A stretch of 64,000 nt of DNA from Ascidia mentula (taxonomy: Eukaryota > Chordata > Ascidiacea > Phlebobranchia > Ascidiidae), in NCBI GenBank assembly GCA_947561715.1, contig OX387197.1, positions 19,824,266 through 19,888,265 of the forward strand. Reading direction: 5' to 3'. Shown piece after piece: positions 1,800 to 55,500 of this stretch (its first letter is position 1; the number at the start of each line of letters is the position of its first letter). Below the pieces are notes generated by a model. That model saw only the letters and a program-made list of their open reading frames with translations, was not told where the DNA came from and did no database searches. Both the position numbers and the translations under genes were made by a program.

Positions 1800-4700
1800 A
1801 TGGAAGCTTTGGAATTCGTTTTTGTGCTATTACTTTGCACTGGCCTCACGTCAGGACAAAATGGTAAGCAAAATTACAAAAGGTAGGAAACCCTTTCTTT
1901 AATCATGAATAAATGTGGTTTCTGGCCTAATAAAAAAGCTTTATAGTCCCACCATGATATCATATTTACCAATCTGGCATCTATACGTGGTATATAACTT
2001 AGTCATGTCTCGTATCTAAAAATTTTCGCGTGAACAGAACATCATATAATAAATAACTGTTTTGTTCTGTCCATAGCCGAAACAGTCACCAACACAACTA
2101 AAGAAAACACTCGTCGCAGTAAGTGCACTCTTTTTAATTAACTAACCTTGTTTCAGATATTTTTGACAAACCATTCAATATAGAACAAAAAAATAAATTA
2201 GCGCAAAAATATAAATCAATCACAAATCTGTTGCCACAGGAAGGCCTCACAAAACTTCGTTCATTCATATTAACCTTCGATGTTTCTTAAAACTTGATTT
2301 TACTCAGTTGCCAGAAAAACCGAAGTTATTCTGGGGCGACTGAATTCATCGGATTTGACAAGGAGATTGCTTGATTTCTATCCCTACCAATACGACGATT
2401 ATTCTTTGCCAATGTACAGAATCAGAAATGGCGGGGATACCATATTTGCACATTGGTTGCATCCTAATGGAAATGAGGTATGTGTTTGAACACGGATTTC
2501 GTTACCGTTCTTATTCAGTATTTTTAGGTTCGGTTTAGTGTTGAAGATGTTGAAGGAAATATGGCGGCTTACAATCACACTTACAAGTACGCTATTTGAC
2601 ACCACGTGACAAAAAAGTTAGCGTGACAGTAATTCTGCAACAATTGCAATATTATCAAGACCTTATTAGCAATATGTATTGAATGAGTATTTATAATTTC
2701 ATAGCCTTTAACTTGAAACGGGACCCAGAAAATATGGTTAAATTGGGTTTTGTTGTTACAGCGGGTCCGACTATTCGTTTTCAACTCTGGCCATCCATCC
2801 GTTTACTGGTTTCTTTTACATCAATTCGACCACAAGCAGGCGGTACACGATTAATGTAAGTGCTGCAGTAAAACCAATTCTGACAGCGTTCATTCTTATT
2901 GTAGTGAAAGAAAGTATAACTTGCTCAACTCTTTGTAACACATTTCACAAAAATAAAAAGTATATTTTGATCAGGTGTATTCAACACTTGGCGGAAACAG
3001 TAGAAGTTTATTGGACTTTGCTGGTTCCGTAAAATATGGAGAGTACATTTTGTCTTATGGAGGAGTTCAGGTTTTCGATGGACTGGCACCGAGCGTGTGT
3101 CAAGTATATTTTTATGTAGCTAAGGTAATATATAAGTTTTATGGCACCTTTATAACAAAAAAGATCATGATCTGTAGGTTACATGTTTGATTCTGTATAA
3201 ATGTGCATTATATACATTAAAGTGCATTTGACACGGTCATGGCAACTTTGCGTAAAACTAAAAGTACATCTATAACAAACATATATCCAAAGTTTTTCGG
3301 TTCTACGTCAATTCAAAAATGTAGTAAACTGCACGAAAAGTAGCGGCGACCAAAAATCGCAAACCTTTTTTGCTGTGGCGAAATTGACATCACACAAGGC
3401 GCTAACGACAAAAAAAAATGCATTGTTAACATGAGAGAAGGCGCCTTTGTTTGCAGATATTGAACAGTTTCAAACGTAGGAGAATCCACAGATTACTGTA
3501 CCCCAAAGGTCAGGACAAGGTTTTACGTCATACAAAAATATGTCACTGTGACGTCACCAACCAAAAGCTTATTTATCCCTGATTATCGGAAGACCAAAGG
3601 GTATAGCAACGACGACACTTCTGTGCACTAAGATAAGACGGGGATGGTGCGTTTCTTTGCTCATTGACATTACATGACGTAATTTTGGGTGTGATGTCAT
3701 AACTTTAACCTCACCTTTGCGTTGATATTAATATGATGATTCCAACATTTCGCGTTCCAAACTATAATGCGAAAAATACATTAGTGGTTGATTGTGGGGA
3801 TTAATCAAATCGTTTAAACGATAATAATTATGACGCGAACTCGTAGGCAACGCTACAGCCAGACAAAAATTGGTACTGTGACAGACTAACAGTGCTGTTT
3901 TGCATAATCAACTAATTTGGTCGGTTTTTCTCGGCGGTCTTTGCCTGCCTCAAAATTCAATTACGTCTATCTTTTGCTGTGAGTAAACAAAACGACAATG
4001 CTTAATTGACGCTTTGTCTCTGTCATGTTTTCAAAAGTTCATGCATCACGTTAGCGATCATAGAGCTTTAACAACAAGAACACTCTGTACCAGTTACTGC
4101 TTTATCATTACGCAACTAAATAAGACTTAATAGGTCGAAACAGCGGTCATCTGTCTGTAGCTCAAATTAACATAAAAATCCGATTGTTCACTTGCCCTGT
4201 TTAATGCAAAACTATACAAAACCAGTTTTTTTGCACATATATACTAAACCAGTTTTATCATGTTTTCCATTCTTACGCATAAGGCTTCTGCCAGCACTCG
4301 TACAGCTAAAGCGCCTTCTATGACGTCATGCAACAATAATCTCCCTTTTGCACGATTTCGTTTGCAACGGAAACGCACCTTTGATCAGCTGTGTGCAGAA
4401 ACCAGACGACCATCTCTTAGTTTAATTATTAATATGTTTTATTTTTTCGTGTTACATGCACTTTAAATACTCCAGAACCAGAGTGGCATCGATTTTGTCT
4501 CTTGGCTACCGTCAGCAAACCTTCCTTACCTGACCAGCGAAGCCTACTTGGATGGGATTGCTGAGGACGTTGTATTCGGTTACACTTTGCTTTCAACGTA
4601 TGTGTTTTTTGAAATAGCAAAGTGGTCAAACAAGAGTCGTTATAATCTCAGTGAGATAATTGCCAAACAAGATTGTTTCGTCCGTATTGCCACTCGATTC

Positions 4701-7700
4701 AGGGCCAGTTCTGCAAACCAAATTTGACACGTTTGAAATTTCTTGCTGTGGTGACATTTTTTTAGATCTTTCTGATGGCGCATGTATGACCCTTTCTTTT
4801 AAAGCGCATCTTCCAAGTACGTCACTGACTCCAACCCTTGTTGCTATATAGTTGGTAGATGTTTATGACAAGAAAGTCGATAATAACTTGTAGATGCGTT
4901 AAAAAATCATAATCCTGCATTAATACTTGTCGAAACCATTGCAACATTTTTCATTTCTGTATTGGGGTACTTGAATCTACTTAACTGCAGAAAATACACA
5001 ATGTTTGTAGTTTACTGGTCATTATTAGCTGAATTGTTTCTACTTATACATCCATACTTTTACAGCTTTGACCCTGGTCGTGAAATTACGCAAAATCAAC
5101 TTGACGATACGATGATGGACATGTTGGTAACCGTTACTAAAGGCTTTGGTGAGCTTAACCTACAACCCCATTAGTAGCGGCAAAATATCCAGTGTAAAAT
5201 AGATGGAATTATTTTCTGTTTTAACGTTAAAAGCGTTTGATGTGTTTGATAAATGTTTAAATTATTATTAAATAGTATTTGCACTTACGAATCTAAAAAC
5301 ATACTTGTCAACGAATTTGAGAATTTGATAGTCTTTGAGAGTTTTCTTCTCCAATAGAGATAAACATATTATACTTTGAGTTTTTATTTTTACACTTATA
5401 TATATTTTCAAATTTACCTCTATTTTGGACAGAAACAAATAGCAGTACTTATCTCAGGATCCCAAACCCTAAACGTAAGTGTTTTGCATGCGAAAAATGA
5501 AAAAAAAGGGTATTTGAGTTTTAAATACTTTTTTTTACAGTTGCAAGAGAGACAGAAGTTTTGCTAAATCGAATCAAGATGCTAAACTTAACAAAGGATT
5601 TGCCAGATTTTTATCGGTATATTTACAACGATGCCAGTCCTGTTAACAAGATTAATCATGGGGGAGATAATATGTATTCCAAAGGAAACTGGGTAAGAAG
5701 ATATCGCCACCACGAAGAAATTTATTTACTCGTATTTTTGTAATACAGATCCAATTTGCCTCAAATAATGAAACCAGTTTTGCGGAGTACAACAAAACCT
5801 ACAGGTGTGTAGAAAAAAACTAAATCAGTTAAGAATTCAGTTCCATTTGTTGACTTTTTGCACAACAGCGGTGACGACTACACATTTTCCACTCTGGCGA
5901 CCCACCCTTTTGTCGCTCTTTTTTACATCAACTCAACTGCTCCGAAGTATCGGAATTTCGCCATTGAGGTGCAAATAAAACCCCTGTATAATATCAGTCT
6001 AACCTATTGTTGCAAAGTTTGAACCAAAATTCGATACTTACGTTTGATCAGGTGTCAACCAACAACAGAGGCGGAAGATTCGATCGCTTCTCTGGTTTGG
6101 TTTCAAACAAATATAACACAATCACTTTTGAGGGAGTACAAAATTTCGAAAGATATGCTCCTACTGTATGTGAAGTCTTTTTCTACATCGCACAGGTAAA
6201 CTATAACTTCAAACGATTTTGCTCAACAAACAAAATGAGACAAATGGTTTTGGCTTTATAATTTAATTGCGGACTTTTCTGACCACTATGAGAAAATTCA
6301 CCATGTTTTAGAACCAAAGTAACCAAACTGTTGTGCTCAATATAAAAGCGCGAACAGAGTGGTGGCAACCTAATCGAAACGAGGCTATCTTGAATGGTTA
6401 CATAAAGGATGCTGTATTTGGATACATCTTATTGTCTACGTAAGTGTGCATGTAATTATTATGCGTAAAGTAGGGGTGCTAATAAAACTATTGGAATCAT
6501 TTCTTTTAGACATGCTCCTGGTCGAAAAATTACCCAGTTGCAGTTAGAAAGAACAATGCTTGGTGTTCTTAACACACTAACTGGTTACGGTAAGTACAGG
6601 AATATTTACTATCCTGTTTCTCTCGAGATTGGATTATGAGCTAATACTATATTTTGAAGAAAAAACTTCTGCATCACTTGACCAAACTCACAGTCACATT
6701 TCGATTTGTCGAGTTCGCAACTTTAGCACGCGATGGTCTTTTACTTAAAGAATTTATTTAGGTTAACAAGAGAATACAATTTGCGATAACTTTCAGATTA
6801 CGCATTACGCATTAATATTTTTTTATGACGCAATATGTTAAAATGTCAAACAAAAGCCTATGATACTCGGTGTTTCCAGGCGGTTACCAATCAACTACTG
6901 ACAGGGCACGACGGTGCTTAATTTCAAAAAAAAAATTATAGAGGTACACCAATCTGACGAACACTACTTTTACTTTCGGTTTTTGTTTGCAGTATATTTT
7001 TTATTTTTTTTATTTTTATCGGTTTTGTTAGCGCGCGAACACTACACCAAACCTCCAAATGGCAGGGATGTGCGAGTGAAAAGAGTTTGGGAATCACCCT
7101 TGTACAATATATCAACATATTTACGCCACAGTACATTGTCTATCAAGTTGATTCAAATATTTTCGATTAAGAAAACGATTACCACATCATCTAAACGCCT
7201 TTCGAGTTGTTAACAGCGTTATTGTTTTTTATTTTTAGAAACAGCAGCAACTTCTCTAATCACAGACAAAACAAGTATGGACTTGTAGTTAAGTTCACAT
7301 GATAAAATACTTTTACCCAAAAATTTCATTTTTGCAGTACATTCCTATGGTTTATCATAATCACGAGCGTGTATATTATGGCGCCTTGTGCTTGACATAA
7401 TTTCTAAGAAAAGTGCTTCTGCCATAACACTGTTACTGCATTTAGTTACAGGCAAAACTCAAGTCATAATGCAGTCGATAATGTCATCGAATTTGACCAA
7501 GCACATACAAGATTTTCATCGATATATTTACGACGATAGAATATCACCAATGACCAAAATCCAGCATGGAGGAGATAACATGTACAATGGTGGAAACAAT
7601 GTAACATCAGATGGGTTAATAAAATCAAAAACACAAAATAATCTATCTCGTTTACCACAGGTTCTATTCGGTGTAAACAACGAACTTATATTTGCTGAAT

Positions 7701-10700
7701 ACAATCGCACCTACAGGTACGTTGTGGGGAACTGTGCTATTTATGCATGCTTGCCCTTATATCACTGGTTTTGTCGTCCATCGTAATATTAATATACACC
7801 TTTATTCGCAGTGGTTTAGATTACTCATTTACAACGATGGCGATTCATCCTTTTGTTGCATTTTTTTACATTAACACAACCGGAAACACAAGCAGAAGTT
7901 ACACAATTGAGGTAATTGCATCGCGTCCCTTTTGCATTAATTCATAACGATTGTATTTAACTGTGCTTGTTCGACTACAACAATATTGATACCTTCAGGC
8001 TAAGAACTGCCAATCATAATGACAGAAAAGCTGTTAATTACGCTTTGTACGATTGCTGTATGCGGTCGGGCTACATGCTCTTACGCATCTTGGCAGTCCT
8101 TTGGTATTTTACCCTATTTAAATGATCTTTTGCGTAGTTGTTGTCAAGAGGCAGTCCGGGTGTCATTCAAGAATTTTCCGGATCGGTTTCAATTGGTGAT
8201 TATGTGCTGACATATAAAGGATCTCAAAATTTTGGCAGTTTTACACCAAGTGCATGTGAAGTGTTTTTTGTTATTGATCAGGTAATTTGATTCCGAGACT
8301 TTTTCAAATAACAAACAACAAATAGCAGAAACGGTATTTTCGCTCAATTTTTTTTAGAGTATTCAACACAGTTTCACTTTTACTGCTCCTAACACAGGAG
8401 GCATTCGACGAAGCACGGCCACAGTTCGTGGGAATCCAAGAAACATAGTTTTCGGTTACACTCTGTTGTCCACGTAGGGTCCTTTTGTCCAGCCTTATAT
8501 AACTACTTTCTCAATTTACAGCAAATGTTCAACGGACGTAAAAGTATACGTGGTGTAAAAAAAAGACTTATTACTCTCATGCCAACAACATTGTGGTTTA
8601 TTTTAGTTTATTTTTAGAATAAAACCGGGCCGAGACATAACGCTGAAACAAATCGAAAAGACAATGTTTGACATGCTGGCCACCATCACCACTAACAATG
8701 GTAAGACATTTTGTCATTATTGTAAACCAAATCGTGGTAATAGTCAGAAACACAAGTATTGTGTTGCGTTTCATAATAGATTGTAAGCACTTACATTTAA
8801 ACAACATATTTATGCACAGAAACAGCTGTTCCAAGTTACATAGAAATAGAAAATGGTAAGTAGAATATTTCGAACTAACCTAATTTTAAGACATAATTGC
8901 AAAAGATCCAAAACTTGTTTTTACAGCTTCAGCAGACATTCAACAAATAATAAATCGAGTTAAGAATGCAAATTTGACAAGACATGTAAAAGATTTTTAT
9001 CGCTATCGTTATGACGACACAAGTTTTCCGACAAACGGAATTGCAATCGGAGGGGACAACATGCATTACCAAGGAAATTATGTAACAATATATATTTGTG
9101 TTGGTGACATACATTATCATGTACTATGAAAATATTTTTTTAGGTAAGTTTTGTTGCTGAAAACGAAGGACTTTTGACATCATACAATCAAACATACAGG
9201 CAAGATAGGTTTAAATTTTGCTCGACAAAACAATGCTTTAAATCAAGTCACGTGCATTTTTGTCGCAGGGGTTCTGGATACAGTTTTTCAACTGTTGCTA
9301 TTCATCCCTATGTTGCATTCTTTCACATAAACAGTACAGACCAATCAAACCAAACCTTCACCATAAAGGTTATTGTTGTATTTAAACCTTGTAATCGTTT
9401 CGTAAACAACAAAGAAATTAAAAAAAAAACTTACAGATTAACAGCAAAACATAGTTCGTGAGGTTTTTTTTATTTAAGGGGTGGTCCAATCCACAAAGCA
9501 ACAGACACATATCCACTTTTGGCGGCTCAGTAAAACGCGGAAATGAAATATTGACCTTCGAAGTTTATCAAATCTTTAGCGGATTTGTGCCGAGTATATG
9601 TGAAGTTTATTTTTACATTACGAAGGTACAAAAGTGAGTGACCAAGATTGAAATGTAGGTTGTTAACCAAGTTGTTTTGTATTGATTGTATAGGAAGAAA
9701 ATGAGGTTCATTTCCAGCTTCTGTATCAAAATCACTATTTTCACCGATATCGCGAAGCTCTGCTGCAAGGAAACATCACAAATGCTCTTCTTGGTTACAC
9801 TTTGCTATCAACGTTGGTTACAGCTTTTAATAAGCCTTTAGCGAACACATTAATTTATAATATTTTATTACAACAAAAAATTGATTGACACAAAAAAAGA
9901 TTTTTTTTTATTTATGCAACATAACACAACATCTGTGTATTATTAGAGTCGTGCCAGGACGCGAAGTTACCCCAAACCAAGTAGCTGATATTATGCTTGA
10001 TGTCTTAATAACAATGACAAGCAATGGTAAAATTTAAAAAATATTAAAATTCCCGAAGAAATATTAAAGGTTTAATTTACACTTTTTTTGTAGAAACGCT
10101 ACCACCCATCGAAAGCCAGGATGCAGACAGTTAGTACAATCGTATACAAGCAAAATGCTCTAATTTCAAGTAAATGTGATTGGTCAATTTTAGTTTACCG
10201 GCAAACAACACAAGTTCTGGATCGTCTTAAATCAACAAATATAACAAAAAACTTGAAAGATTTTTATCGGTATCGCTACGATGACTATGAAAATCTCATT
10301 AACCACATTTCTAATGGTGGCAACAATCTGTACAACTACGGGGGAAATTACGTGAGTGCAACAACGTATAGATGCTCATATTTTGCTAAATTTTATTTTT
10401 TATTTCAGGTGACCTTTTATGGAAATGGGGAGAGTGCTATTGCTGAATATAACCGAACATATAGGTATGATTGGGCATCGCAAAAACTAAAGATTTATTT
10501 CCAATTATTTTTAGCGGCCCTGGGTTTATGTTTTCCACCCTTCCAATATATCCATTTTTGGCCCTCTTTTACATCAATTCAACGAATCAAAAACATGAGT
10601 CATACTGGATAAAAGTAAGTATAAACATGGAAACGATTGATAATGTTTTGCAATGAATGTCTTTTAATTTCATAAGTATATGGTCGGTTACAAAATGTTT

Positions 10701-13700
10701 GTTTAATGGCGACGAAAATGAGCTCAAAGGAAGACACATTCAAGTTTATGTTGCATAGAAACCAAAATAAGTATCTGCATAGTAGTCGTTTAAGTTTTGT
10801 CTAATTATCACTTTTTCTCCCAGAGTCAATTTCTACACGATTTTACTTAAAACAGCTTAGTTACGGTTATAAAAACATGTATTCAATCGGAAACAAATAT
10901 ATGTACAAGTAGAAGACAATGTTGATTTCATTTTATGATATCAACCCTATTTGTATTTGTATTGTAACAGGTGACATCGAGACCGGAGTACTACCATAGA
11001 AGTTTTTACACCTTCGATGGAATCGTATCAAACCATGATTATGTACTGCACTACAAAGGGCACCAAGATTTTAACAGAAACGCTCCGAGTTTGTGTGAAG
11101 TTTATTACTACATTTCAAAGGCTAGTAATTTTCTGTTATTTTAGTCGCATACTCGTTCTTAGTCTCTGTGTGTTTATAATTCCATGTGTAGTAAACCTCC
11201 GTTATTTCGGTTTCGGTTAATCCGGTTCTACGACTCTTTCTGTACAGAACATAACAGAAAACGAGTTTACATTTGAATGGTCGAGCCAAAACTACTACTA
11301 CTACGGGAGTAGCGAGGCTCATCTGTATGGAAACATCAGCAACACCTTTTTTGGCTACATGTTGTTGTCAACGTAAGCAAAATGATTTAATAAACTTTCA
11401 CATGGATGTTTTAAATGTCAGTAAATCGTGGGGGCGTTGTGGCACAATATTTTACTTTCCACAGGTTTGATCCTGGTCGTGAAATTTTGCATCTTCAACT
11501 TGAATCCACAATGCTAAAATTGCTATCGACACTGACTGAAGGTGGTAAACGGTTACACTTTCATTTCAAATAATTTTTTTTCAAATTTCTGTGTTACAGA
11601 CACTTCATCTCCTAATCAAACACAAAGGGCCACAGGTAAGTGACTTCTCATTTTCACTGTCTTATTTCGTAAATAATGCATTTGCTCCAAGTTATTAAAC
11701 AAACCTTTTTCAGTTGCCAACCAAACAGAGATTCTTGTTGACCGACTTAAATCATCAAACCTGACAACAAACATAACAGATTTCTACCGCTACACATACG
11801 ACGATCGACAATACCCAATTAATAAAGTACAAGATGGCGGATATAATATGTACGACGAAGGAAATTATGTGAGTTGAATTTCGTATGTCACGTTGCGCAT
11901 CGTATAATTGTCCATTCAAATCTCAGATTTACTTCTCGGTCGATGGAAATACAGCAATCGCTGAATACAACCAATCGTATATGTAAGTATCAAACGAAAT
12001 AATAGATAGCTGAAAGCCTTTTAATTATTAAAATACGTATATTTTTAGCTGTTCAAACTATTCGTTTTCGACGCTCGCTATGTACCCTTTTACTGCATTT
12101 TTTTACATCGACCACACTGATGCAATGAACGGAAGTTATTCCATTGAGGTACACACCTGGCCAACAGAATAAAATTATGTTTGAATTTTAGGAGAAATTA
12201 TTTTTTTTTTTAGTTTTATTTTTCTTCACGTCATAGTTTATTTTAAGGTACGTTCAGTTCTTGGATATTACTGGAGTGCCGCATACACGGAATTTGTCGG
12301 TGCAGTAACAAATGGAAAGCACTTTCTCACTTTTAGAGCTGTACAAGTCTTTGAAAGATACAATCCAAGTATCTGCGAAGTGTTTTTTTACATTACTGAG
12401 GTAAGCTCGCCGTGTAAATTTCTGAAACATAAGATAACGAACCACAACAAATGCTTCAAAAATATGATTTTTCAGAATCAGACTGGAAAAACTTTCAATG
12501 TTTCGACGACGATTCCACACTACAGAAACAGACGCACTAAAGGTGTCCTCGAAGGCAATGTCGAAAACGTAGTCTTTGGATACACCCTTTTATCTACGTA
12601 TGTAACCACGTTATAAGCGATTACGATTTAATTTACGAAACAATTATTTTCATGGCGGCGAAAATAATATTTAGGCTCGATAGAAACAATCGTCCCAGAG
12701 AGATTACTCAAACGGAAATGGAAACAACGATGGAATATTTTTTGAACGCCATAACAGGCTATGGTATGTCCATGTTCAAGTTTTATTCGAAGTGTGTTGT
12801 TTTCTTACACCGAAAGCAATTAATGTTGAAACAAGTTTTCCTATATTGGTTTAATTCTAGATCAGACAAATTGTTTGTATATTTGCAGAAGTCAATGAAG
12901 AAAATGAAGCACTAACAACAGGTATTTTAATTGTTGCGTTCATCTTTCTTAACACAACATTACTCTAAGAAATAGGTGCAGGTAGATACTTTTAAAGCTA
13001 AAAACTTTCTGGTCTAATTCCTTTGTGTAATGTTGTTAATTTGACATAAAACAGTCGAAGGCTTTCCTGGAACCAATGTCATATTGCTGAGGATTTTCAA
13101 CAAAAACGTCACAACAGCTACACGAACCTACTCCGTCCAAGTAAATGGTGGTGGAGATTCCCAGGCAACGATAGTCCATGATGTAAAAACAACGTTCATC
13201 GAAGATCTTACTCCGCTTACTTTTTACACAATAACAGTGTCGGTGCTCAATGATGGTCTTCTGCAATCCACGATTCTCCTAACAGTCAAAACAGGCATGT
13301 AGACTATAATTTAATGAATTCAACTGTTGGCAATGTTAGACCAAATTTCAACCGGAATGATCCGTTTAAAAGATGCGTTGATGCGTTGATGGCTCCAAAA
13401 AAATAACTTTCCTACGAGTACTTACTTGTATTTTGATTTAGGCATGTCTAATATTTAATGTCATTCGACCTCTATATATTTGGATACATAAAAAACTTTT
13501 TTTTTCACAAAACACATTTATGACATCATATTTTTTTCCAGCACAAATCTGTACTCTGCAATGTACGAACAGCAAATGCATCGTCTTCGGTTCCTCGAGA
13601 ACAGAATGCGTTTGTAACCCAAGTTATCAACCTCACCAGAACTTAACAAATGTATGTGTGGATATAAACGAATGTCAACAGACGCCTTCACCATGCCCAG

Positions 13701-16700
13701 CTGATGCGATATGTTCCAACACAGATGGGTCGTTTACTTGCAAATGTCGCAGAGGTCTCCAGCTTTTCGGTGAACAGTGCGTAGGTGGGTGGTGGAATGG
13801 CATAAAAAATATAACTTATGTAGAAAACATCAAATGTCGCACATATCTCCTGCATTGTTTAAATGAAAGATTTCTAGTAGTTAAAGGTTATCAGGCTACA
13901 ATATTTTCCACTGTTTCACATCTGACCAAACTATTATTGCTAAACAATTTAAGATCCACATATCTGCGAAAGGGATCCATGCAACAACAATGGGGACTGT
14001 ATTTCGAATCGCGGTACATTCTCCTGCAACTGTACAAAGTATTATTATGGTACAAGGTGCGAATATTACACAAGTCCATGTTTGAACGTCCCCTGCCAAA
14101 ATGGTGGAACTTGCATCGATTTGTCTGGAAGTTATGAATGCACTTGCACGACATCTCACACAGGTAATAAGTTTGGAACTAACAAGTGTAAGCATAGTTC
14201 GTTTGTAATGAAATTCTTTCAAGGACCTAATTGTGATTTGGATGCCGATGAATGTCAACTCGATACTCATCATTGCGATCCCAACTCAAAATGTGAAAAT
14301 ACCGTTGGAAGTTTTAAATGTATTTGCAATGAAGGATACAGGTGAGTGACGTAAAACGTTCCAAAAGATTTCCATTAACAGACTTGCAAAATTCACAGGG
14401 GAAACGGAAGAAAAAAATGTTACCGTATCCGACTGCTCCCATATGGGGAAAACGAACAAGATCAAATGCTCGAGATTGAAGACAACGTTGCTTCGCCCAC
14501 AATCAGGTACTTATAGCTGGTTTTTGAATATTGTGCTGGTTATTTTAACGCAATAACTTTCCAGGGCTTCGTACGCGATTCCTTTCGGTACAAAGAGGTT
14601 TAGGGATATGAGAGTAACCTCCAACGGTTTTATCTCCCTTGGATCTGGCGCATGGTTTGTTCAATATCTTATCCGCCCCTTCTACAACGGCTTTAATTTC
14701 TTTGACGTCTCTGTAATTGCACCATTCTGGGACGACTTTCATCCTAACATTAATAACAATGGGCGTGTTTATTATCAGGTACGTGATAGCTAGATTTTTA
14801 TTGTGTTTTATTTTGGCATTTCAGAAATATTTTACGATTTGCTGTTGAACTATTCGGAAAAAAATATAATACGTAACTCATATTACTTCAGGTTTATGAC
14901 AAGGGGTCAGAAACTTTGACAAACAAAAGCGAGGTTGTGGTCCATCAGGTTGCCAATCGCATAAACCATTACTATAAGCGCGATGACTTCGAGCCTTTGT
15001 TTGTATTAAAAGTCACATGGAGCGAAGTGGTTGTTTTTGATGAATACTACAACCGCAAATATGTTAGTGAATGACTAAATGATTTTCAGATTCAGAATTT
15101 TGCTCTCTGTTATATAATTAAAATATAATTCACCAACAGCCAAGCACATTCCAAGCGATCGTAGCGAGCGATGGGACGGACACTTATCTTATCTACAACT
15201 ACAAAGAAGACGCCATGTTATGGAATACACGAAAGAGATATTACTGGGGTAATCGGGCGTTGATTGGATACAACTTTGGATTAGGACAAGATTATATCGA
15301 GGCACAAGGAGATTACAGACCAGATCACCGAAATCAGACTGCAGGTAAGGCGGGGACTTGAGCTTGTGTTTACAGACTTGATAATTCAGGTTGTGTTTGA
15401 TAAGCAATAACAAAGAATGTATTGGCATTAACATTCTATGTGGATTTATTTATATGCACATCTCACGCAGGCGGACCAATCGGCCAATACTATTACCACG
15501 TAGCGAGCGGAGTTACAGACGAACAGAAAGCTGCAGCCACAACAGGTTGCTTGAAATGGGTGCTACGTGAACTCAATGATCCATGGGTACCTGATTTTGA
15601 GCCGTGCCCGTGCAACAGTCTGCAAGCCCGAATCGATCGCAGGTTCACGTGGTCGGTAGACGCTGAATTATACTTGAATTCAGTCTTTGACCAGGATCGA
15701 CCGGGACATTATCTGACAGCCAATGTAGATGAATGGACGTACGATGAAGGTAAATAAAACAAACTTCTTATGTATGTTCCCTCACTCCTGGATTTTGAAT
15801 TCGCTGAATTTCAGTTTTTTACGTAATTACAACCCTTTTTGGAAATTAAGTATAATATTTCTGAGGCACCGTTTATCGAGCACTTTTTTAAAAGTTGTAT
15901 CTATACGTTACGCCTGACGCGTGATTATTGTTGCCTTAAAAGATTTCCAACCTATACCAAGCTGCAGACAATGCATAGTGTTTCGAGTAATAAAAATCAT
16001 CATTAGAATGCTTTCTCGGAACGCACTATAGCCTGATCAAAACCCAAATTTTCCTACCTACTCATCAAACGACGTATCTAACCACAATTTAATATAATTT
16101 CTTTTGTAGTCGGTTTATCAAACTGCTACCAACCACGACTCAACAGCGGTCCAAGATGTTGTTACTCTCCACGCACCAGCTCATTTTCACGGTTCTGGGG
16201 TTGGTTGAGTCTCAGTCCCATCATATCGGGACCATTTTCAAGTAGATACGAGCGCGATCAGATTCCGATTTTTGAAAGGAATGCAAGTTGGTCTTGGGTT
16301 CGTCACAGAGACGAGGAGCTGTTTTACACGCAGTACAACAAGTCATTGGGTAGGTTTACGTACGTAGAAGTTTTCTTGGCTCGCATATTCAAACTAGTTA
16401 CATTACAACGTAAAAGTAGTACTTTCTTTCATTTCTTAGATTTTCATTTCCCTAAAATAATATCAAAGTTATTTTTATTAGAAAACGATCTCATTCCAAG
16501 AAGACAATGCTGTGTAGAGAGCAATGACGAAATTCTATGTGATTTGTACCAAGCACTACGACCGCCAGCCACTTGTTCCGGTTACATTCCGAGACGTATT
16601 TGTAAGTCATCTTTATTTGCAATACCAAAATTTAAAACATCAAAAAAGTTTTATTTCATGCTTATTTTAGCTTTTTTCTGGGGCGATCCCCACATTACAA

Positions 16701-24872: not shown

Positions 24873-24899
24873 TTAGTCTTAGCCATTGTGACATATCCT

Positions 24900-24905
24900 A
24901 ATAAA
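24900..24905 (+). promoter_or_regulatory. Polyadenylation signal of gene B
   Basis: AATAAA lies 28 bp after the gene B stop codon, so the 3' UTR is very short if this site is used. A second AATAAA at about 25280 is an alternative. Confidence 0.6.
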
Positions 24906-25815
24906 CATAGCTCTAATCGTTTTTGCACGAGCTACTGTTGTAGTGACTTGTAACGTATAATTATAACCATCTTGGCATTCACCACGTTTACAAATGTCAT
25001 CCATCCATTTTCCGGACGTATGTTCATGTGCAAATCATCACAAGTTTTCAATTTGTTGCCACAACTGACTGAATTAAGAATACGTTATTTTAAAAATGTA
25101 CGACCAAATTATACGTGATTAGCTTTACAGTATACGAGGCTACTTATACATGTGCATATATGTTTTTGGCAAGGGAAACTGAGAAGACCGATTCCAACAT
25201 GCTTTAAACTATTGTATTCACACTCTTTTTAATCTAGTTTGTAAGTTGTTCAGACAAAATTACTTTGCACGAAAAGTTCAATAAAATTTACGCTTCGACA
25301 ACCCTGAGGAACTTTGCTGTCTCTCCACAATATATGTTAGATAGACAAGTATGTATATAGGCAAGACGATAAAATAGCGGGAGAGTAAATGAAATGACCA
25401 AAAAGTCACACGTTTGCCAGGATAGTGACCAATTGCAGTTAGGTATAGTAACCACTATTTACCCCACTAAAAGTGGCCCTGCAAAAGCATACAGTAGCAA
25501 ACTATGTTACATGAAGCGATAATGAATAACACAAGAAAAAACTGACTAAATTCATCATGCATGACTAAATTAGGTTTATCTGTTGATCTGCATTTTTCTT
25601 TGAAACCATTGAGTTGTAACGAACGTTGTAAGGATACACGGTCGGAGTTGCGCAACAACAATGGGTTCGAAATTTCTTCTAAACTTCAAACGCCTGGACG
25701 CACAATGACGCACGGTACGCATATGCAGCGGTGTTTACTGGTTTTACGCGTCAAACCAGTGGCCAACATCCTAAGCCATATGTGATTTGATTCCGCTAAC
25801 ATAAACGAGAACGGG
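24906..25815. other. Gene B-gene C spacer, first part: no gene seen
   Basis: AT-rich sequence with short ORFs only and no splice-linked domain, RNA gene or repeat that I can recognise. Confidence 0.5.
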
Positions 25816-25816
25816 T

Positions 25817-31547: not shown

Positions 31548-31589
31548 GGCTGTACATTGGCGTTAAGCAAGGCGCCCTGGCAGGTTAGG

Positions 31590-43500: not shown

Positions 43501-46500
43501 CTACAAAGTGTCATTTGAAGCGGTTCAATATTCATATGAAGGAATCAGCCCAACAGTCTGCCAAGTGTTTTTCTGCATTGGGCCGGTAAAACATTTTATT
43601 TTAATATCTTGCACAAGTAAATTATAATCATGTACACTGTTGTTTTAGATCGAAAATAACCAAACATTTGCTTTAACTTCAACAACTAGAGTGTTTGGCA
43701 GTTACCAAAGTATTGAAGCGAACCTTAATGGAAACAACACATTTACCATGCTTGGTTACCTGTTATTATCCTCGTAAGTAAGAACACTTGCGTATTGTTA
43801 TTTTATGCTCAGCGTAATCATAAATGCAGTACACATACTATTCAAAACGGAAATATTAAAGGAAGTCTGTAATACTTTAAATAGGAACGCCATTACAATT
43901 ATAGGCTATATACTAAATTTTTCAAATTAGAAATGGCCTAGTTTTAAATCTACTATATTCTCTTTTCAACAAATAGTGATAACAATAAGAAAGACATGGA
44001 TAAACAACAGTCAACATTCTTAGACTGGACTTTGTAAATGTTCTTATGCTATACGACTTTAGAGCAATTTCCATGAAACACCTTTCTTGTTTTTACTAGA
44101 TCGTATCCTGGGCATGTGGTGACAACGGATCAAGTTGAGGCGACTTTGCAAGATATTTTGGACACTGTAATGGAAAAGGGTGCGGATTTCCATTTGTTTA
44201 AAACAGTGTATTATGTATAATGATGCTAGCGTTGACCAATGAACCTGACCCAGCTAGCGCGTTAAGTGATCGAAAACAGATATGGACTTCTTGTCATTAT
44301 TCAAGTTGTTCGTTTCACTTACGTTTGTTTGACTTGATGGCTTCTGCTGTATTTTATGCATGAATTTTATATCAAAGTTTGTACGGTTATCGTACAAGCT
44401 AAGCTTCACATGACAGATTTCTGCGAAAATACCACAAATATATCTAACGATGTATCTTATACTTTTTAGCTTTACCTGGACGATCCTTGGAACCACGTAG
44501 TAAGTGTTTTTTGTATACGGGATATGTATTATTTCAATGAGTTAATAAGTTTGTCACGTTCTACATTACTGCATTTTTTCCTTTTCATATTTTAGTTTTT
44601 TGCGAAAGTGAATCTCTTTTGAACCGCATTGCTCGTTCTGACTTAACGAGTCACATGGTGGACTTTAATCATTACGAATATGATGACACCAATCAACCGA
44701 TGAGGTCAATCGCTAATGGAGGAAACAACATGTTTAACGATGGAAACCGCGTAAGGATTTTAACTGCTTTTCACATGCCCAATTCTCATTGGTTTGAATT
44801 CCAAAAAACAGGTTTATATTTTGGCAAATGGAACTGGGGGATTTGCTGAATACAACCGAACATACAAGTCAGTAAAAATGTTGTTAATGTGTAATGTGAA
44901 ATTAACACATGCTGTACGAATGTTATGTTATATTGTTTAGTGGATCTGACTACACGTTCACAACATTAGCAACTTATCCATTCACTGCGATTTTGTACAC
45001 AAACACAACTCTACCTAAAAACAGGACTTGGACAATCGAGGTTGAATTTGATTCCGTTGTTAAGTATTTTGTATGAAATATTTGTGGTACTACCACAAGT
45101 TCATTACAAGTCTTTTAGGCAACGTATTGTTTGATCAACAGGCTTTTTTACTTACTATAACCAAGCAAAAACTAATTAAAGAACACATTGTTTCAGGTTT
45201 GGTCACGATTACAATATTCCTGGACAACTAGCACCTTTGGCGGAGTGATATCCAGCGGAGAATACGTGTTATCATACCGGGCAGTAAATTATCGGCAAAG
45301 TTACATCTCTTATAGTTACAATTACCAAACCATATGTAAGGTCTTTTTCTACATTTCAAGACAGGTGAATTTGTAACTTATAAATGAATGCACTCTCTCT
45401 CAGTGCAAAAACGCATGTCATAACATGTTATGAAACAATTAGGATGTTGCAACCAAATACCATACGTTGTTTATAAACGAAGTGGTTGTTTTACGCTGTG
45501 CAGCGTAATCTCTAATCAGAAAAACGTTATCTTTTTTTTCCGATAACTTAGCTTTTAACAGAATGAAAGTACCTTCGAGTTTACATTTACGCATCAAAGT
45601 TTGTGGTGGGACAGCAGACGAAGTCAAACCATAGGAAAAATAAGTGGAAATGCAACATATCTTGTGTTTGGTTACACCCTAATCTCTACGTAAGCAACTA
45701 AGAATTATAGATATGGACGTTTTTTTAGCGCAAAAAAGCATCATTCTAGCATTTGTGAAGCTATTATTGGAAAAAATTTTGCACCAAAATAAATAAATAA
45801 GGCAGACCAGATTTTTTAATTTTCATCATATTTCAATGTAACAAATGCATATTTCTTTTTCAGTCAATGGTACGTTGTGACAAACCAACAAGTCGAAGGT
45901 ACAATGAGAATCTTACTAAATGCGGCAACAGGCGGTGAGTACCAAATTCGTTGCCTAAAGCTGTGCATAAAGTTGCATAGAGATCGCAATTAACATGTAA
46001 TCATGTCGAAAATTTTGTTTTAAATAAACCGAATTTTTCTGGTCTTCTCCAATTACGGATAAAGATATTTCCTCATTCATGTAGAACCATGTTTTAGTGA
46101 AATAAATATTAATTACAACCACTGACCGGCCTACCAAAGTGTGGCAGATAAATGCACAAAAAACTAAATAACAAATGCGAGGACCACGTAAGTTAATGAA
46201 GAACTCTGCATAGCTTTTTGATTGGACAACCTGATTTCAAAGCTGCGTGCGTGAAGTGTTTTTATTTCTGTTCGGATCGATTGCAAATGCGGTGCCGTTC
46301 CGCGACTCGGCAGTTCTAGTAAAAAAGTATATAACGTAGTAACTTCGAAAAACCCTCGACTAAATAGTCGCAACTATATGTCGCAACAGTGAATCTATGT
46401 TCAATGAAATGCGACTTGAAAATACTGGGACTAAAACAACAATTTTAAAAGTAGGGTATACTGCAACATGTTTACATAATAAATGCACTTGCGCGCATCT

Positions 46501-49500
46501 TGAAAACAATATACAGCTGTAGTTTTTTCAAATAAATAAATCTTCTTTTGGTTATCGGGTCGCACAGTTTTTAAAAACGACAACCTTCGCATTCCATAAT
46601 TTCGGTTGCACACACCCAGTGTAAATATTTTCGTTTGTTGCAGAAGCTCTTCCCACGCCACAACCAACCGACCCACGCAGTGAGTAAAGCTTAAACACAT
46701 GAATTTTTAAGAACTAAATAACTTTAGTGAGATTTGTATCTTTTGCACGCAAGTTCAATTCTGCAACAACTGTGTATGTTTGATTATTTTTTCTAGTCGC
46801 TCTAGAGATGGAAGAAGTTTTGGAAAACATCAGATCGGCCGATTTAACGAAGAACATTGTGGATTTCCACAATTATACATATGACGATTTGGATCCTCCC
46901 ATAAATAGAATATCTAGAGGAGGAAATATGTTTAACGACGGAAACTACGTAGGAACACTTTTTTGTTACACTTATATAGAAACCTAAATAACATTTTTGT
47001 AAAGGTTTATTTCCATGCAAATGACATTGGTGGTGTCGCTGAATACAACCGGACGTACAGGTCAGCGCCTGCATGCTATACTAAGCAGCATGATGAATTA
47101 AGTTGCACAGTTTTTAAAACAATTAGTACCTTTCAATTCATTTGTAACCTTGTTTGTGAATGTTTTCACTTTTTCAGTGGTTCTGACTTCGCGTTTTCAA
47201 CGCTGCCAATTCATCCCTTTGTCTCTATTATGTACACCAACACCACTTATAGTAAAAACACAACGTACAGCATCGAGGTAAACGATGTTTTAGATTCAAA
47301 GTTGTAAAAGCGTTGCGGTAACGTTTTCTCTGTTAATAGCTTTGTACGAAGGCTACAAAATTAAGTATAATTGTCATGTCAATGTTTAGACCAGTGGTTC
47401 CCAAAGTAGGCGCCAGCGCCCCCCTAGGGGCGTTGGCAATCGTATAGGGGCGCTGGAGACTGAATGGGCGATTGGGGGGCGCTTGGTGACATGGCAAATT
47501 TTCTCTTATAGCCTGAGTCAGTGTTTGCCAACCGGTGGTACGTTTACCACTTGTGGTATGCGACCGCATTCCAGATGGTACGAGAGTGCCTTTCCGTAAC
47601 TATCTTAGCTCTTACTTGGTGGAACGTGCGTTCAGCGCATTAACCACTCTTTTAGAAAACAGAATTCGTCTTGATATCGACAGTTGAGGAGACTTGCGAC
47701 TGTTTTTGTCCGACATGAAACCTGACATTGAGAAATTGGTGTTATTGCACCAACCTCACCCATCGCATTAATTGACAAGCAACAAATAAATTCGTTGTGT
47801 TTTTTGTCTGTTCTGGTTGTCGTCGTTAAATGACTAAGGTGTTTGGGGGCGGTACAGAAAAAAAGTTTGAGAAACACTGGTTTAAACTGTATGAAGGTAT
47901 ATAGTTAGCGCCAAAGTTTTAATGTCTGGTAGAACTAAAATTGTGTCTGATCAACAAGGTGTGGTCGCGGTTATTAAGCTACGGAATAAGAAGCACTTTC
48001 TCTGGGTCGGTATCAAACAACAACTACTTGTCAAGATTTGAAGTCGTCCAATATTCTCAACGCCGATACTACCAGTCCGTGTGCAAAGTTTTCTTCTGTA
48101 TATCTCGACGCGTAAGTTTTTACTAACTAATCATGGAAGTATTAAATGACCTCTACTTTCACTATCGTCAAAATAGATATCATCAAACATTTCTTCATTA
48201 CGCTAAGCCATTTAAAATTGTTTCCATTTAAAAAAAATAAATTTTACGAAAATTTCCGTTATATCAACGTGATTTATTTACAGAACGAAACTGAACCAGA
48301 GTTCACTTTCACAGAACAATACCATAGTAATAATTATAGACAAAATAAAGCAAACCTTAATGGAAACACAACGTTTGCCGTGTTGGGTTACGTTTTGCTG
48401 TCGACGTAAGTTCCATTTGCTAATTATAATGTAACACCTTATTATTCATAATTAGTTAAATGCAACGTTTGTGTAGTTTGAAAGGCAAACATATTTTTTA
48501 GCTTTATTAAATGGAGCACAAGTGTTGTTTCAAATCATTGATATTAAAATTTTAACCTACACAAAATTTTAGAATAACGCCAAGTCGCACCATCACGCAA
48601 CTTCAGGTCGAGTCGACAACGTTAGCTATACTCAATGCCATAACAAACGGTAAGCAATGAATACATGCATGAATTATTTTGGAAATTTTGGTTTTTCAAT
48701 GCCAATTATTTTAATAAGGGCCTATGGTTATATTTTAAAACACAATCAGTTTCCAATCCGACTGTTTGTTACTAATAAACATTGGTCCGGATTTAAAGTG
48801 CTTAAGGGGTTAAAGGTCTACAATTGGGTAACTTTAACATGCCCCTAACTTTTAAAGTAGGTCAGCTTAAACAAAAGAAGATAGGGCCATTGCTGGGCCG
48901 CTAAAATTTTTTTGACAATTTGGGACAACGTGGTGCAAATTTGGTTTAGTAAATTTGGCTTTTCTTTGACTATATCAAACCTGGCATTTTTTCAACAGCT
49001 TTTATTTTATTTGTTTGTGTGTTTGTGTTTTGTTCGTTGGTATGGGAAAAGTTGGTGCGAACTAAAACAAATTTAGCAATAACAGCAGCCTGCAAACGTT
49101 GGTATGGTATACTGGCATATAAATGACAATTATTTCATGCATGTTTTTAGAACGTGTTGCTGACGCACAGCCACCAAACACAGAAGGTAGGTGTTTTGTG
49201 ATTTTGTTTGGATACTGCCATGTGCGTGAAAAAAATTAAGTAAAAAGGCACACTTATGCCATGGAGTGTTTTTTTCAAGTTATGACGGGTGCTTTGGATA
49301 GCATTGAATCTTTAAATGTGATAAGACATCTGCCGGATTACCACCGCTATCTTTACGATGATTACGCCCAACCAATCAATATGATAACGGATGGAGGCGA
49401 TAACATGTACAATGATGGAAACTTGGTAATAAACTTTACACATTATTTCACAAATTGCTGCTTATAGTTTTATGCTATTTTGTCCATAGGTAATCTATGA

Positions 49501-52500
49501 TGCAAACGGAGATGGTGGTCTTGTTGAATACAACAAAACATACAGGTTTTTATGCCTTAAAGGACAACTAACGTTGTTGTATTTTTGTAATTTTGTGATA
49601 TTTATGTTTTGTACGAATTTTGTATGTATATCCTTTAATTTTTTGTTACGCTATCTTGAAATTTGTCGAATCTTCCAGCGGTTCCGGCTATTTGTTTTCA
49701 ACCCGCGCCACTCATCCATTTTTAGCACTTATGTACATTAACGGAAGTGACCAATCACTTAGGAATTACACCATTCAGGTAAGGTGTCCAATCTTACAAA
49801 AACTTCCCTCGAGAAACGTTGATGTTTTGTATTATTCATCATTTTCAAGTTGTTAATTAAGTTGTGTATCATAAACTACTGAGGCAAAACCCTAAAGCCG
49901 ACATAAAACTTTTTTGACAAAATTATAGGTGTGGTCAATCGTCGGCAGTTATCAACGGGAAATGACCTTCTTTGGGTCAGTTTTTATTGATGACCATGCA
50001 TTATACTTTCGAGGAAGACAATTCTTTAACGGGTTTGCCCCAAGTATTTGCAATGTCTTCTTCCATGTTTCCAATGTATGTTATTTCTTATTTCAATGTA
50101 ATGTTTCCTTAAACTTAATAATACAAGCTAAATGATCACAAATTAGATATCGTAGTGAAATATAAACGACAGGATTAAAAAGCGTGGTATTAAATACACA
50201 GTTTTGTACATTTTTACCGCATTGCCATGAATCAGAAGACAACCGATTTTCATCGTTTTTTCAGAATCAGAGCGGTAGCAGTTTGACATTTCAAACAGGA
50301 TATTATTACTACCGAAGCGATGTCGCTGTCCTTACCACAAACGAATCAAACACTTTCTTCGGTCATATTCTGCTTTCCACGTAAGTTACTATCATGGGAC
50401 GAGCGCATGGAGCAAGGCTGAAACAAGGCCAAATCGTTGTGACGCATTAATTGCATTAAGTAGGAAAGCATTAATTGATTGATAATAACAAACAATGCTT
50501 TACACATACTGTTCGGTTGGTGCTCTATATTGGTGCTTTAAGGCAGTGCTTCCCAATATTTTTTGGCTCATGACACCTCACAAAATACGCAGAGACTTCT
50601 TGGCGCCCTTTGAGGACCAAAGAACGTCCGTATTGAAATATTACCACAAATATAATAAAATTTCAATATCAAGTGCATGGAGATAACCTGAAATCTACAA
50701 TTGCGTTTTGTTACAAAAAAGGGGGTTCACGGCAATTCGGTTTGGAATAACTGTCTTAAAGTATATAGTATTTTTAAATAAACCTGCCAAAGTAATTTCA
50801 TGTGCTTTAAGTTGGGACCGTGGTCGAGAAATTACGCAGCTCCAACTAGAAAATACAATGCGTGATGTATTGCAAGCTATTGTCAACGGTAAGTTTTTTA
50901 AATGCAATCGGATAAGCATTTCTAATCTTAATGTTTCGTGTATTCATTCGCTTTTCGGTATATTTTTCACCCAATCATGGAAGTTCTGTTTGTAAGTTTT
51001 AAGTTTTGCTTTAGATATCAACCTATCAAAATATTATTTTTGATTAATAGAGATGAGAAACGCAAATATGCATTCTACATGATGTTTAAAGATATTCATG
51101 TTTGTGTTTTTTTGTAGGTGCAATAGATCCAATACCACCACCGAATCCCGAAGGTAATTTGTTAGTTGTCGTACACATGGCAATATGTGTAATAAATGTG
51201 TTGAAATTCTAGTTGTCGAAGTGGCAGAATGTTTGCGGGTGGGAATAGAGACGCTCAACTTAACAGGGCACGTCGCAAATTCCTATCAATATGTTTATGA
51301 TGATCGGTCGTATCCGATTAATTCCATTGTTGACGGAGGAATTAATATGTACGATGAAGGAAATATTGTACGTATAGTAACTGCAAGTAAGCTGCTCAAA
51401 TTTTAATGTTTTTTGGTTGTTTTGTGCAAAGGTGAGGTTTAACGGAAATGGAGAAAGCGCTTCTGCCGAATACAACAAAACTTACTAGTATGTATAAGAA
51501 CTACTATATATTTCATAAGAGTATGTTTTTTAACAGTAATTTTCCTTTGGACCCGTGGGACCTGCTTCTAACTAGTAGGATGTATTTATTAAAACTGTTA
51601 AAAACATTGGGCCCTTGACACAACAATACTTCGCGTGATTGCCACACATACATTCTCTCGCTTGACTATAAGATCTGTCATAGAAATCGCACGTAACCGT
51701 CAGAGGCGATTAAGTGTTATGACGATAAAAATAATAGTACTTATCGCTTGAGAACAAGTTTTGTGTTTTAAGTGGAAAAGACTTTTCATTTACAACGTTG
51801 GCTCTTCATCCTTTTGCCTCATTCCTTTATATTGGTCGGAATGCTCCCACAAACGGGAACTATTCTATTGAGGTTACAAATCTTATTCTTACTGTAAGCA
51901 TTTAAATTTACATGTTTTGAGATCACCAGGTGTTATCAAGACTAGGGTACTATTACTATTACGGAAGGATTGCGGATGAATTTTCGGGCTCTGTGTCAAA
52001 TGGGGCTTTTGTGCTCAACTTTAAAGGAAATCAAGTTTACGACATGTATACCCCAAGCATTTGTGAGGTCTTTTTTGTAGTCTCACAGGTAAAGGCGCGA
52101 TATTTTTGTCTTGAAACGCGTCTTGACATATGTTTTTAACAAAATATTTCACCATGAAATTTACATTACATTGAATATGTAATCTAAACTTGAATAAATT
52201 TCAATTTTCAGAATTCAACTGATTTGGATTTTGAGGTTTCCTCGTCAAATGGATATTATTATTATAGAGACCATAACAACATTGCCACTCTTTCAGGAGA
52301 TGCTCAAAACAGCTTGTTAGGGCACGTCCTGCTTTCCACGTATGTTTCTTCAGAAATAATGGTGGCGAAATAGAAGTGTCGACAAATTTAGATATTACAA
52401 TGAAGGAGTTTTGGCTGAAATATGTAAACGAACTTAATTTTATATTTTGTGCGCAAATTTTCGGTTCCTTAAAATTTTTAAACTGAGAATTAACTTTCCC

Positions 52501-55500
52501 TACTCAGACTGGAAAGCAATGTAGAATTCTCCAGTTACTGATCGTGATAAATCTTCAGTCATGTGCTAATGTTGTTTAGTGCAGTGCTAACTGTATAACT
52601 TTCTGTCTAGCTACCCAGTACGCGTAATTACGCTTGATGAACTGGAGACTACAATGCTGATGATGTTGAACAGTGTATCTGAAAATGGTGCGTCTCTAAA
52701 ACCAATTATTCACTATTACAAATGTTCAAGCAACTGTAAAAAATTTTTAAACCACAATGACCTGGACATCGGATTGTATACAAATTTGCAATATATTAGA
52801 AAGTGTCATTAACACATTAAAAGAAATTGTTTGATTATTTGTACATGTATACTTTTCTTAGGTTTGGGAGAAAAAGAAATCGTTTCCACAAAAGGTGACT
52901 AAAATTTTGCTTTTTTTACATTTGCAACCAAGAATAAATCATCAATGAAAAATCAGTGGAAGTTAGACAAATAATCATAACGAAATTTTTCTCTTTTTGC
53001 AGTGGAAGCGTTTCCCGGAAGTTCGGTTATTTATTTGAACATAATCAGATTGAACGTCAGTATGGCTACACGCACGTACTCCATTGATATTATGGGACTT
53101 AGTCAGTTTTGGACGATTACAGCCTTTGACGTGGAATTCTTGTTGATAACTGGCCTAAGTCCCGAAGTTACTTACGAACTAGTCGTTTCGGTTTTAAACG
53201 ATGGCCTGCTGGAAGCGTCGATAACTCTTATAGTAACTACAAGTATGTTACGTTGCTATAAATACACAATGCAGGCGAAACGTAGTTCCCATTTAAGTGA
53301 TATTCTACCGTTAAAGCTAACAAAAAACTTGTTGTGCAGCCAAATTCTGTACTCTATCGTGTACAAACGGCCACTGCATCGCCTTTTCATCATCAAGGAC
53401 GGAATGCGTATGTAACAGCGGCTACGCAGCTCATCCAATCCTGCCCAATCTTTGTTTGGACGTAAACGAATGCCAAGACATACCTTCACCATGCCCAGTA
53501 AACTCGACATGTTCAAACAGAGGTGGATCATACACTTGTCGATGCCCAAGTGGCTTACAACTATTTGGAGACCAGTGTGTAGGTCAGTAGTTTGCTTCAC
53601 CTTTTTAGTGCTGCAACACTAAAAATCATATCACAAGCAAGAAAATTGATCTACCTTAAACACCTTCCATCCATTTTAGTTCAAGTCAGCGTACATGTCC
53701 GAATAACGTATTATTTAGGCTCAAACATCTGCGACCAGGAACCATGCAATAACAATGGAACGTGTCTTTCTCTTCAAGGAAGATTTTCTTGCGATTGTCG
53801 TGAAAATTTTTTCGGTTCCAGATGTGAGCATTACACAACTCCCTGCTTAAATGAACCTTGTGAAAATGGCGGAACCTGCGTCGATACGTTTGGAGGTTAT
53901 AGGTGCAATTGTCCAGCCAACTATCAAGGTTAAACAAAGAAACCATTTGTGCAATTGTATTTTAGCTTTATAGTTGAGGTGTGCATCCAGCACAGTTGCA
54001 AGTAAAATAATTGTGAGGACAAAATGTTTTTTTCCTGATCTGCACAACCGAAAAAAGATTGTTTACTGGTGTGATTGCCATGTTAGTTTTGTTTTTTGGT
54101 TGATTAAGGAACAAACTGCCAAGATGACGCAAACGAGTGTCAACTCAATACGTTTGATTGCGACGAAAATTCCCACTGCGAAAATACGTTGGGTTCCTAT
54201 AACTGCATTTGTAACGACGGATACAGGTTTGCTTGACAAAGTAATCTTTAAATCTCCTTTGTCTATATATCATTATATTGCAGAGGAAATGGAAGGAAAA
54301 AGTGCTACTTTATTAGACTACTTCCGTATGGGCCGGACGAAGGCGACGAGTTGTTAAAAGTCGGAGACGACGTGGCTTCGCCAACGATTAGGTAGAACGT
54401 CGGTACATTTTGTTATTTTATTACAACAAAACATTGTGTTAAGGTCGTTCTTCAACATTCCTTTCCGCTTCAAGAGGTTCAGAGCTATGCATGTCACATC
54501 AAATGGTTTGATATCTCTTGGTATTGATTCTTGGTTTGTCAAATATCTTTACCGTCCACCATACAATGGATTCGGTATTTACGATATCGAAATTATTGCT
54601 CCTTTCTGGGACGACTTTCATCCGAGTAAAAACAACAATGGACGTGTTTATTATCAGGTATTTTTTTTATTTCAAATACAACCATTGGGTAAACTGATTA
54701 CTTTTGCACTAAAAAGAAACGAAAACCCAGCTGGGTTAAATATTAAAACACTTCTTGTTGTGTAAACCTAAGAACGTTAAACATTGTGCAGGTTTATGAC
54801 CAAGGAACAGTCACTTTGACGAATAGGAGTGTGACTGTGGTAAATGAGGTTGCAAGTCGCATCAACACGCATTTTCAGAGGGACGACTTTGAACCACTGT
54901 TTGTGTTGAAAGCTACGTGGAGTGAGGTTGTGATGTACAACGAGTTCTACAACCGCAATTATGTAAGTGAAGGCTAATTCCATTGGGCTGCAAATGCTAA
55001 ATGACATTCACCATTTTATTGGCAGGATTTTACTGATATATTTCTTGTAACACACGTTGTTGATATGACATACCTTGGAACAAAAACAATTCATACATGT
55101 ATACATAGTGTTAATGCAAATTCATTCCAAAGAGCAACAAATGATGTTTGCCCTATTCACAGGATAATATTTGTATATTTCAGCCTAGTACATTCCAAGC
55201 GATCATAGCGAGCGATGGGACCGACACCTACCTTATCTACAACTACAAGGAAGACGCCATGTTGTGGGATACACGGAAGAGATATCATTGGGGAAACCGG
55301 GCATTAATTGGGTACAGGTTTGCCCTGGGTCACGAATACATTGAAACACAGGGAGATTACAGGCCTGACCACCGCAATCAAACAGCAGGTTCGCTATTTC
55401 TGTGGGCATTCACATAGCTGCAATATTTTTTTCTGCTCATGGCGCATGTTTTGCATAATTTGATTTAAGTTTACAGACCATAAAAATGAAATTAGGTGAA

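Follow-up and report, generated by a model that had tools for sequence, protein, structure and literature searches.

Membrane mucins of the MUC4 type, which carry NIDO, AMOP and VWD domains, are the closest described counterparts of two genes in the ascidian Ascidia mentula. Both genes lie on the plus strand of a 64,000-nucleotide stretch of genomic DNA (the window; contig OX387197.1 of assembly GCA_947561715.1, here called C1, positions 19,824,266-19,888,265), and the likeness consists of NIDO and VWD matches in gene 2 and, in gene 1, a hydrophobic segment at the C-terminus. The difference lies in the outer region, which in the ascidian proteins is a tandem array of an unnamed module. The module belongs to a domain of ca. 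200 residues that is present in bacteria, phages and the ascidian, and that is without an entry in the libraries we searched; a name for it would give unknown proteins of bacteria and phages a common annotation.

The original prediction, made from the letters of the window, had counted 16 module copies in two genes. An exon scan for AG..GT pairs with an open frame, seeded by copies 1 and 2, recovered the same number, six in gene 1 (2308-12763) and ten in gene 2 (31807-52687). Each copy is made of six exon types, a to f, with 16 of each, in the predicted order a-b-c-d-e-f throughout, and the phases are identical in all 16 copies (1-a-0-b-2-c-0-d-0-e-2-f-1), so that the module, having the same phase at both ends, is symmetric (1-1). 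All 96 exons follow an AG acceptor, and the donors are 94 GT and two GC, the latter after exon b of copy 4 and exon d of copy 5. In gene 1 the copies are copy 1 (2308-5148; exons 2308-2477, 2528-2586, 2762-2855, 2975-3124, 4476-4597 and 5066-5148), copy 2 (5541-6589; exons 5541-5692, 5749-5804, 5869-5968, 6052-6195, 6312-6439 and 6510-6589), copy 3 (7446-8700), copy 4 (8927-10026), copy 5 (10194-11544) and copy 6 (11714-12763). Gene 2 holds copy 7 (31807-33886; exons 31807-31961, 32020-32075, 32169-32268, 32684-32836, 32909-33030 and 33807-33886), copy 8 (34353-36017), copy 9 (36471-38555), copy 10 (39116-40673), copy 11 (41156-42263), copy 12 (42642-44179), copy 13 (44596-45934), copy 14 (46797-48649), copy 15 (49280-50888) and copy 16 (51213-52687). 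Four exon ends were set by hand: exon b of copy 4 (9199), exon d of copy 5 (11120), exon f of copy 3 (8700) and the start of exon a of copy 15 (49280). The same scan made no exon call on the module-free strands of five other loci (minus strands of L029, L030 and L031, plus strands of L032 and L033), whilst in the 264 kb surrounding the window it found 41 ordered plus-strand copies, the window's 16 among them. Joined a to f, as the exon sequences suggest they are, the copies give stop-free products of 213-225 residues with 32-73% pairwise identity (median 41%). Their consensus holds the predicted series of marks from NLT and DFYRY to GREIT, and 14 columns are invariant, including GG, GN, P89, F122 and C149 (copy 1 numbering). 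Each copy carries 4-8 N-glycosylation sequons and 1-3 cysteines, and the sequon YNxT is found in 15 of the 16. A stretch of ca. 92 bases in an intron of copy 1 (window 3217-3308) recurs in at least 39 other places of the genome at 92-96% identity, 40 of 534 candidates having been scored.

Relatives were fetched and confirmed with an alignment of three ascidian modules from other loci and window copy 7 (alignment A3). A scan of genome contigs with A3 gave 105 pattern-matching stretches, 27 of them encoding a bacterial relative; the relatives are recorded under Roseibacillus, Fulvivirga and Microseira and in bins recorded as Bacteroidetes, Verrucomicrobia, Acidobacteriota, Phycisphaerae, Zixibacteriota and Neomarinimicrobiota, and by these recorded taxa the bacterial relatives span at least six phyla. 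On IMG/VR viral contigs, relatives were found in 16 of 81 stretches with A3 and in 35 of 64 with a cross-kingdom alignment, the contigs being partly shared (the relatives' loci are L034-L076 and L077-L111). Searches of INPHARED phages by tblastn with one viral or one ascidian query returned no match, and the phage relatives therefore rest on the IMG/VR contigs and three BFVD models. The bacterial form of the motif reads DGGxDMYDxGN ... NxGADGxG ... DPSxN. Because A3 contains a window copy and served both to fetch and to confirm the relatives, the shared N-terminal motif is true by construction, and the evidence for homology is drawn from three other comparisons, which agree. Firstly, a profile of 20 bacterial domains alone recognised window copy 7 at an E-value of 6.8e-14, with 7 of the 16 copies below 1e-3, 10 below 0.1 and none of 3000 shuffled copies below 1e-3; the other six copies scored above 0.1 individually, and divergence thus often keeps a single copy from being recognised. 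A profile of seven viral-contig domains alone placed six of the 16 below 1e-3 (0 of 3000 shuffles). Window open-reading frames (ORFs) other than the copies also fell below 1e-3, seven with the bacterial and ten with the viral profile, and these are expected to carry module exons. Secondly, profile-profile comparison of the bacterial domains with the 16 copies gave 95.9% probability (E-value 5.9e-9, score 63.0, 194 columns; best of 40 column shuffles 19.1), and that of the phage domains 97.1% (5.6e-11). Thirdly, the 16-copy profile matched, among the fetched ORFs, the C-terminal half of viral ORF L061 (independent E-value 1.3e-6), a half that lies outside the fetch patterns but inside the tblastn confirmation by another ascidian module. 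With profile matches over most of their length, the window modules are almost certainly homologous to the bacterial and phage domain. An invention confined to ascidians, for which the lack of a name in all libraries searched might speak, is refuted by the relatives in bacteria and viruses, which match along almost the whole module, and retains practically no credibility; bacterial contamination as the source of the module genes is rejected because these genes contain introns and sit on a contig of chromosome size.

A tree of 63 rows (from 84) resolved bacterial (32), viral (7) and ascidian (24) sequences as three groups with support of 100/97, 98/98 and 100/98, linked by long branches and rooted at the midpoint for display. 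The ascidian is the only eukaryote in this tree, with which descent and transfer are alike compatible. The residue after DPSx is asparagine in 32 of 32 bacterial rows, in contrast to cysteine in the window copies; cysteine is also found in 7 of 7 viral rows. The viral copies at L071/L082, L085, L089/L090, L095, L098 and L103 are reordered, profile positions ~61-209 preceding ~3-79, which looks like a circular permutation or two incomplete tandem copies, and at L102 and L104 ca. 370 residues are inserted between profile positions 35 and 36. Among five full-length bacterial ORFs compared with Pfam, HYDIN-like Ig domains occur in three, TSP3 and leucine-rich repeats in one and HYR in one, and one of the five gave a sub-threshold match to a Type IX secretion system sorting domain. 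Three full-length viral ORFs gave one lectin-like domain, one sub-threshold match to collagen repeats and one without a match, whilst ten ORFs flanking viral relatives on three contigs comprised one tail-spike-like ORF, seven of metabolic, nucleotide, glycosyltransferase or polymerase families and two without a match. In view of these domains and neighbours, a surface or fibre role is plausible for the bacterial and phage relatives.

The module had been predicted to belong to no named family, and for the libraries searched here this is borne out. Pfam gave no consistent match across all 16 window copies, nor for two ascidian modules from other loci, and no sound match for three bacterial domains and one viral protein; NCBIfam gave no consistent match for the 16 copies, two bacterial domains and one viral protein. 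PHROGs yielded no sound match for one window copy, two other-locus modules, one bacterial domain and two viral proteins, nor did PDB sequences for the 16-copy profile, one other-locus module and one bacterial domain. We set aside six weak Pfam families, each in one of the 16 copies (best E-value 0.0013), four weak NCBIfam families, likewise in one copy each (best 0.005), a fatty-acid-binding protein found with the 16-copy profile in PDB sequences (0.056), phrog_7782 of unknown function in PHROGs (0.011), Lmo2445-like_C, met in the Pfam search of bacterial and viral relatives at 0.022 and under its own cut-off, and antibody chains at 0.088 and above, found in PDB sequences with the other-locus module. 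A search of open PubMed Central papers found nothing that combines NIDO and AMOP with ascidians or MUC4 and nidogen with Ciona, and nothing on the module motif or on its fold. The module is thus undescribed in the sense that it is unnamed in the libraries searched, but it does not stand alone, being one branch of a wider family with bacterial and phage relatives.

Predicted structures are consistent with this membership and with the beta-rich fold expected of the module. An AlphaFold2 model of window copy 2 has 11 strands at a predicted local distance difference test score (pLDDT) of 70, and that of a bacterial relative, whose alignment included four window copies, has 10 strands at a pLDDT of 94.8; compared by order of elements, both show nearly the same succession of helix, strands and helix. 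The family fold is therefore predicted to be a beta sandwich flanked by one helix at the N-terminus and another at the C-terminus, and the order of predicted secondary structure, with both helices, joins the profile match as a likeness to the bacterial and phage domain. Among the matches listed, both models weakly resemble domains of sugar enzymes which we take to be of the beta-supersandwich class: GH65, GH94, GH116 and PL17 enzymes and galactose-mutarotase-like proteins share 4-12% identity in the listed rows, and the match is only slightly above background. The NIDO domain (PF06119) occurs in the same extracellular protein, and two motif pairs and one phase-0 intron can be aligned by eye between it and the module, as might be expected if the module were a divergent copy of its own protein's NIDO domain. 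No profile similarity was found, however: profile-profile comparison with the cluster's NIDO domains gave a probability of 0.1-0.4% (0.1% with the 16-copy profile), the hhalign score of 15.4 compares with a shuffle mean of 14.6 and maximum of 21.2 (60 column shuffles; the NIDO profile is shallow, with 5 sequences), and Pfam matched NIDO in none of the 16 copies. The profile comparison and Pfam thus disfavour a NIDO origin, which we regard as very improbable.

The count of 16 copies holds for the window, yet the 264 kb around it hold 47 module starts, for 41 of which the scan recovered all six exons. They are distributed over five plus-strand genes with 6, 6, 10, 11 and 8 module starts, of which the second and third are the window genes and the fourth is designated gene C, and a minus-strand stretch with six. 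Our table of complete copies comprises 40 of the 47, one having been excluded by a 6 kb span limit and six lacking an exon in the scan; exon a was available for all 47 and exon d for 46. Seven NIDO domains lie at 19.79-20.01 Mb of C1, one of them incomplete in the fetched DNA. Gene 2 and gene C share 91-96% protein identity over nine syntenic module pairs and are, by their sequences, recent duplicates. Between these paralogues of one genome, the ratio of nonsynonymous to synonymous substitution rates (dN/dS) is 0.17-0.54 in the nine module pairs and 0.23 for three NIDO exons combined, and the nine syntenic copies look constrained; a tenth pair, wrongly matched, does not enter this range. Such values bear on the reading of the modules as immune or self-recognition receptors that vary between individuals: a tandem gene cluster with unequal numbers of modules in its five plus-strand genes is what such receptors might show, but dN/dS is below 1 in all nine pairs and we consider this role improbable.

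Across the genome (195.8 Mb in 79 contigs), a search with copy 7, in which the best 150 of 307 candidates were scored and counts are lower bounds, found matches on C1 at 18.5, 19.75-19.96 and 23.03-23.12 Mb and divergent copies on at least five further contigs: C2 (5.2 and 12.0-12.4 Mb), C67, C70, C71 and C72. A module from C2 used as query listed 88 matches, mostly on C2 itself. A module at locus L032 on C2 agrees with those of the window in its six exons and their phases, and a module adjoining it shares 58% identity with it and 33% with window copy 7. A second large group of divergent modules lies at 11.97-12.36 Mb of C2 (L030, L031), where the two modules that were read are ca. 8 kb apart and possibly belong to one gene each. 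On the reverse strand of L033, an ORF at 2860-3132 seemingly fuses exons a and b of a module with no intron.

Most window copies depart from the rest of the family in a set of five aspartates that may form a metal site; DGGxDMYD holds three of them, and GAD and DPS hold one each. All five stand together in 29 of 32 rows from bacteria, in 7 of 7 viral ones and in the 3 of 3 ascidian rows that come from other loci, whilst the set is eroded in 15 of the 16 window copies: copy 7 alone keeps five, three copies keep two, two keep one and ten keep none. The three glycines of the motif and its final asparagine are kept in all 16. As both profile and fold comparisons place the window copies within the family, the missing aspartates are read as loss within it; the GAD loop is poorly alignable in the eroded copies and single letters there are uncertain. 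In an alignment-free count, 3 of the 41 exon-d pieces from the plus strand contain GADG, and each of these three belongs to the first copy in its gene; on the minus strand 5 of 5 pieces contain it. In the tree, copies that keep the acidic residues lie near the base of the cluster's group, the individual steps being without strong support. The minus-strand stretch itself (C1 19,755,000-19,766,000), with its six module starts and its five exon-d pieces all carrying GADG, adjoins the MUC4-like genes that mostly lack it.

We propose, with a probability of ca. 0.5, that the modules form a multivalent adhesive ectodomain for a putative ligand, in which the ancestral site has mostly been lost. The original prediction had seen in the modules the likely contact surface, a role that stays putative here. 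The tandem arrays would be long, multivalent, glycosylated ectodomains at the outer end of MUC4-like membrane proteins. The ancestral domain would bind a ligand, most likely a glycan, possibly through a metal ion held by the five aspartates, which come from three loops; most copies of the MUC4-like branch would have dropped the acidic set and retained the scaffold, the outermost copy with an intact set (copy 7 in gene 2) would perform the ancestral binding, and the remaining copies might act as spacers or have gained other partners. Two findings weigh against this proposal: the aspartate set is incomplete in 15 of 16 window copies, most of which may be spacers, and the first-copy GADG pattern is absent in two plus-strand genes, gene 1 of the window included, so that, gene 2 and gene C being recent duplicates, it amounts to about two independent cases. 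A glycosylated rod that raises and protects the cell surface without a specific ligand would fit the loss of the acidic set alongside retained motif glycines, the NIDO and VWD domains that follow the modules, and the abundance of sequons, YNxT among them. The sequons are, however, weak evidence, as bacterial copies, which have no such need for glycosylation, average 3.5 and the three other-locus ascidian modules have 2-5; purifying selection on the nine syntenic copies and the retention of all five aspartates in copy 7 also speak against a mere shield, which we hold possible but rather doubtful. The adhesive proposal can be extended to a single metal-assisted glycan-binding domain common to phage fibres, bacterial surface proteins and animal membrane mucins, in which tandem duplication released most copies from the ancestral site and, in some genes, only the outermost copy binds whilst the inner ones form a glycosylated rod or serve new partners; in this wide form we think it unlikely. 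In one gene, copies retaining the aspartates adjoin copies that have lost them, which offers a natural test of the role of the conserved site.

The remainder of both genes is consistent with the MUC4-like architecture. Gene 1 appears to open with a signal-peptide-like exon of 21 residues (1800-1863; ATG at 1800, phase 1 out), its four-exon NIDO domain lies 3' of the modules (14399-15344), and its last coding piece (24723-24869, exon start approximate) encodes a 20-residue hydrophobic segment and a short tail, a candidate C-terminal transmembrane helix by hydropathy only. With a signal-peptide-like exon at the start and a hydrophobic segment and short tail at the end, the modules of gene 1 would be membrane-distal. 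This agrees with their predicted place at the outer end of a MUC4-like protein, as they lie far from the C-terminal segment in gene 1 and precede NIDO and VWD in gene 2. Gene 2 has a probable signal peptide of 23 residues (31590-31658, exon end approximate) and a four-exon NIDO domain (54284-55388) that when spliced scores 93.9 bits to PF06119 (cut-off 25). Cysteine-rich exons follow (55566-56737, ends approximate), which from their cysteine pattern we take to be AMOP-like, although chained together they gave no Pfam match at an E-value of 0.1. The subsequent VWD-like region (56819-57700, end approximate) scores 26.2 bits to PF00094 (cut-off 22.9), the match being confined to its first 43 residues (profile positions 4-48 of 156), and gene 2 continues past the end of the window. 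At the other end, positions 1-234 are the 3' end of another, upstream membrane gene, again with a hydrophobic segment and a short tail, and the tandem gene cluster therefore extends beyond the window.

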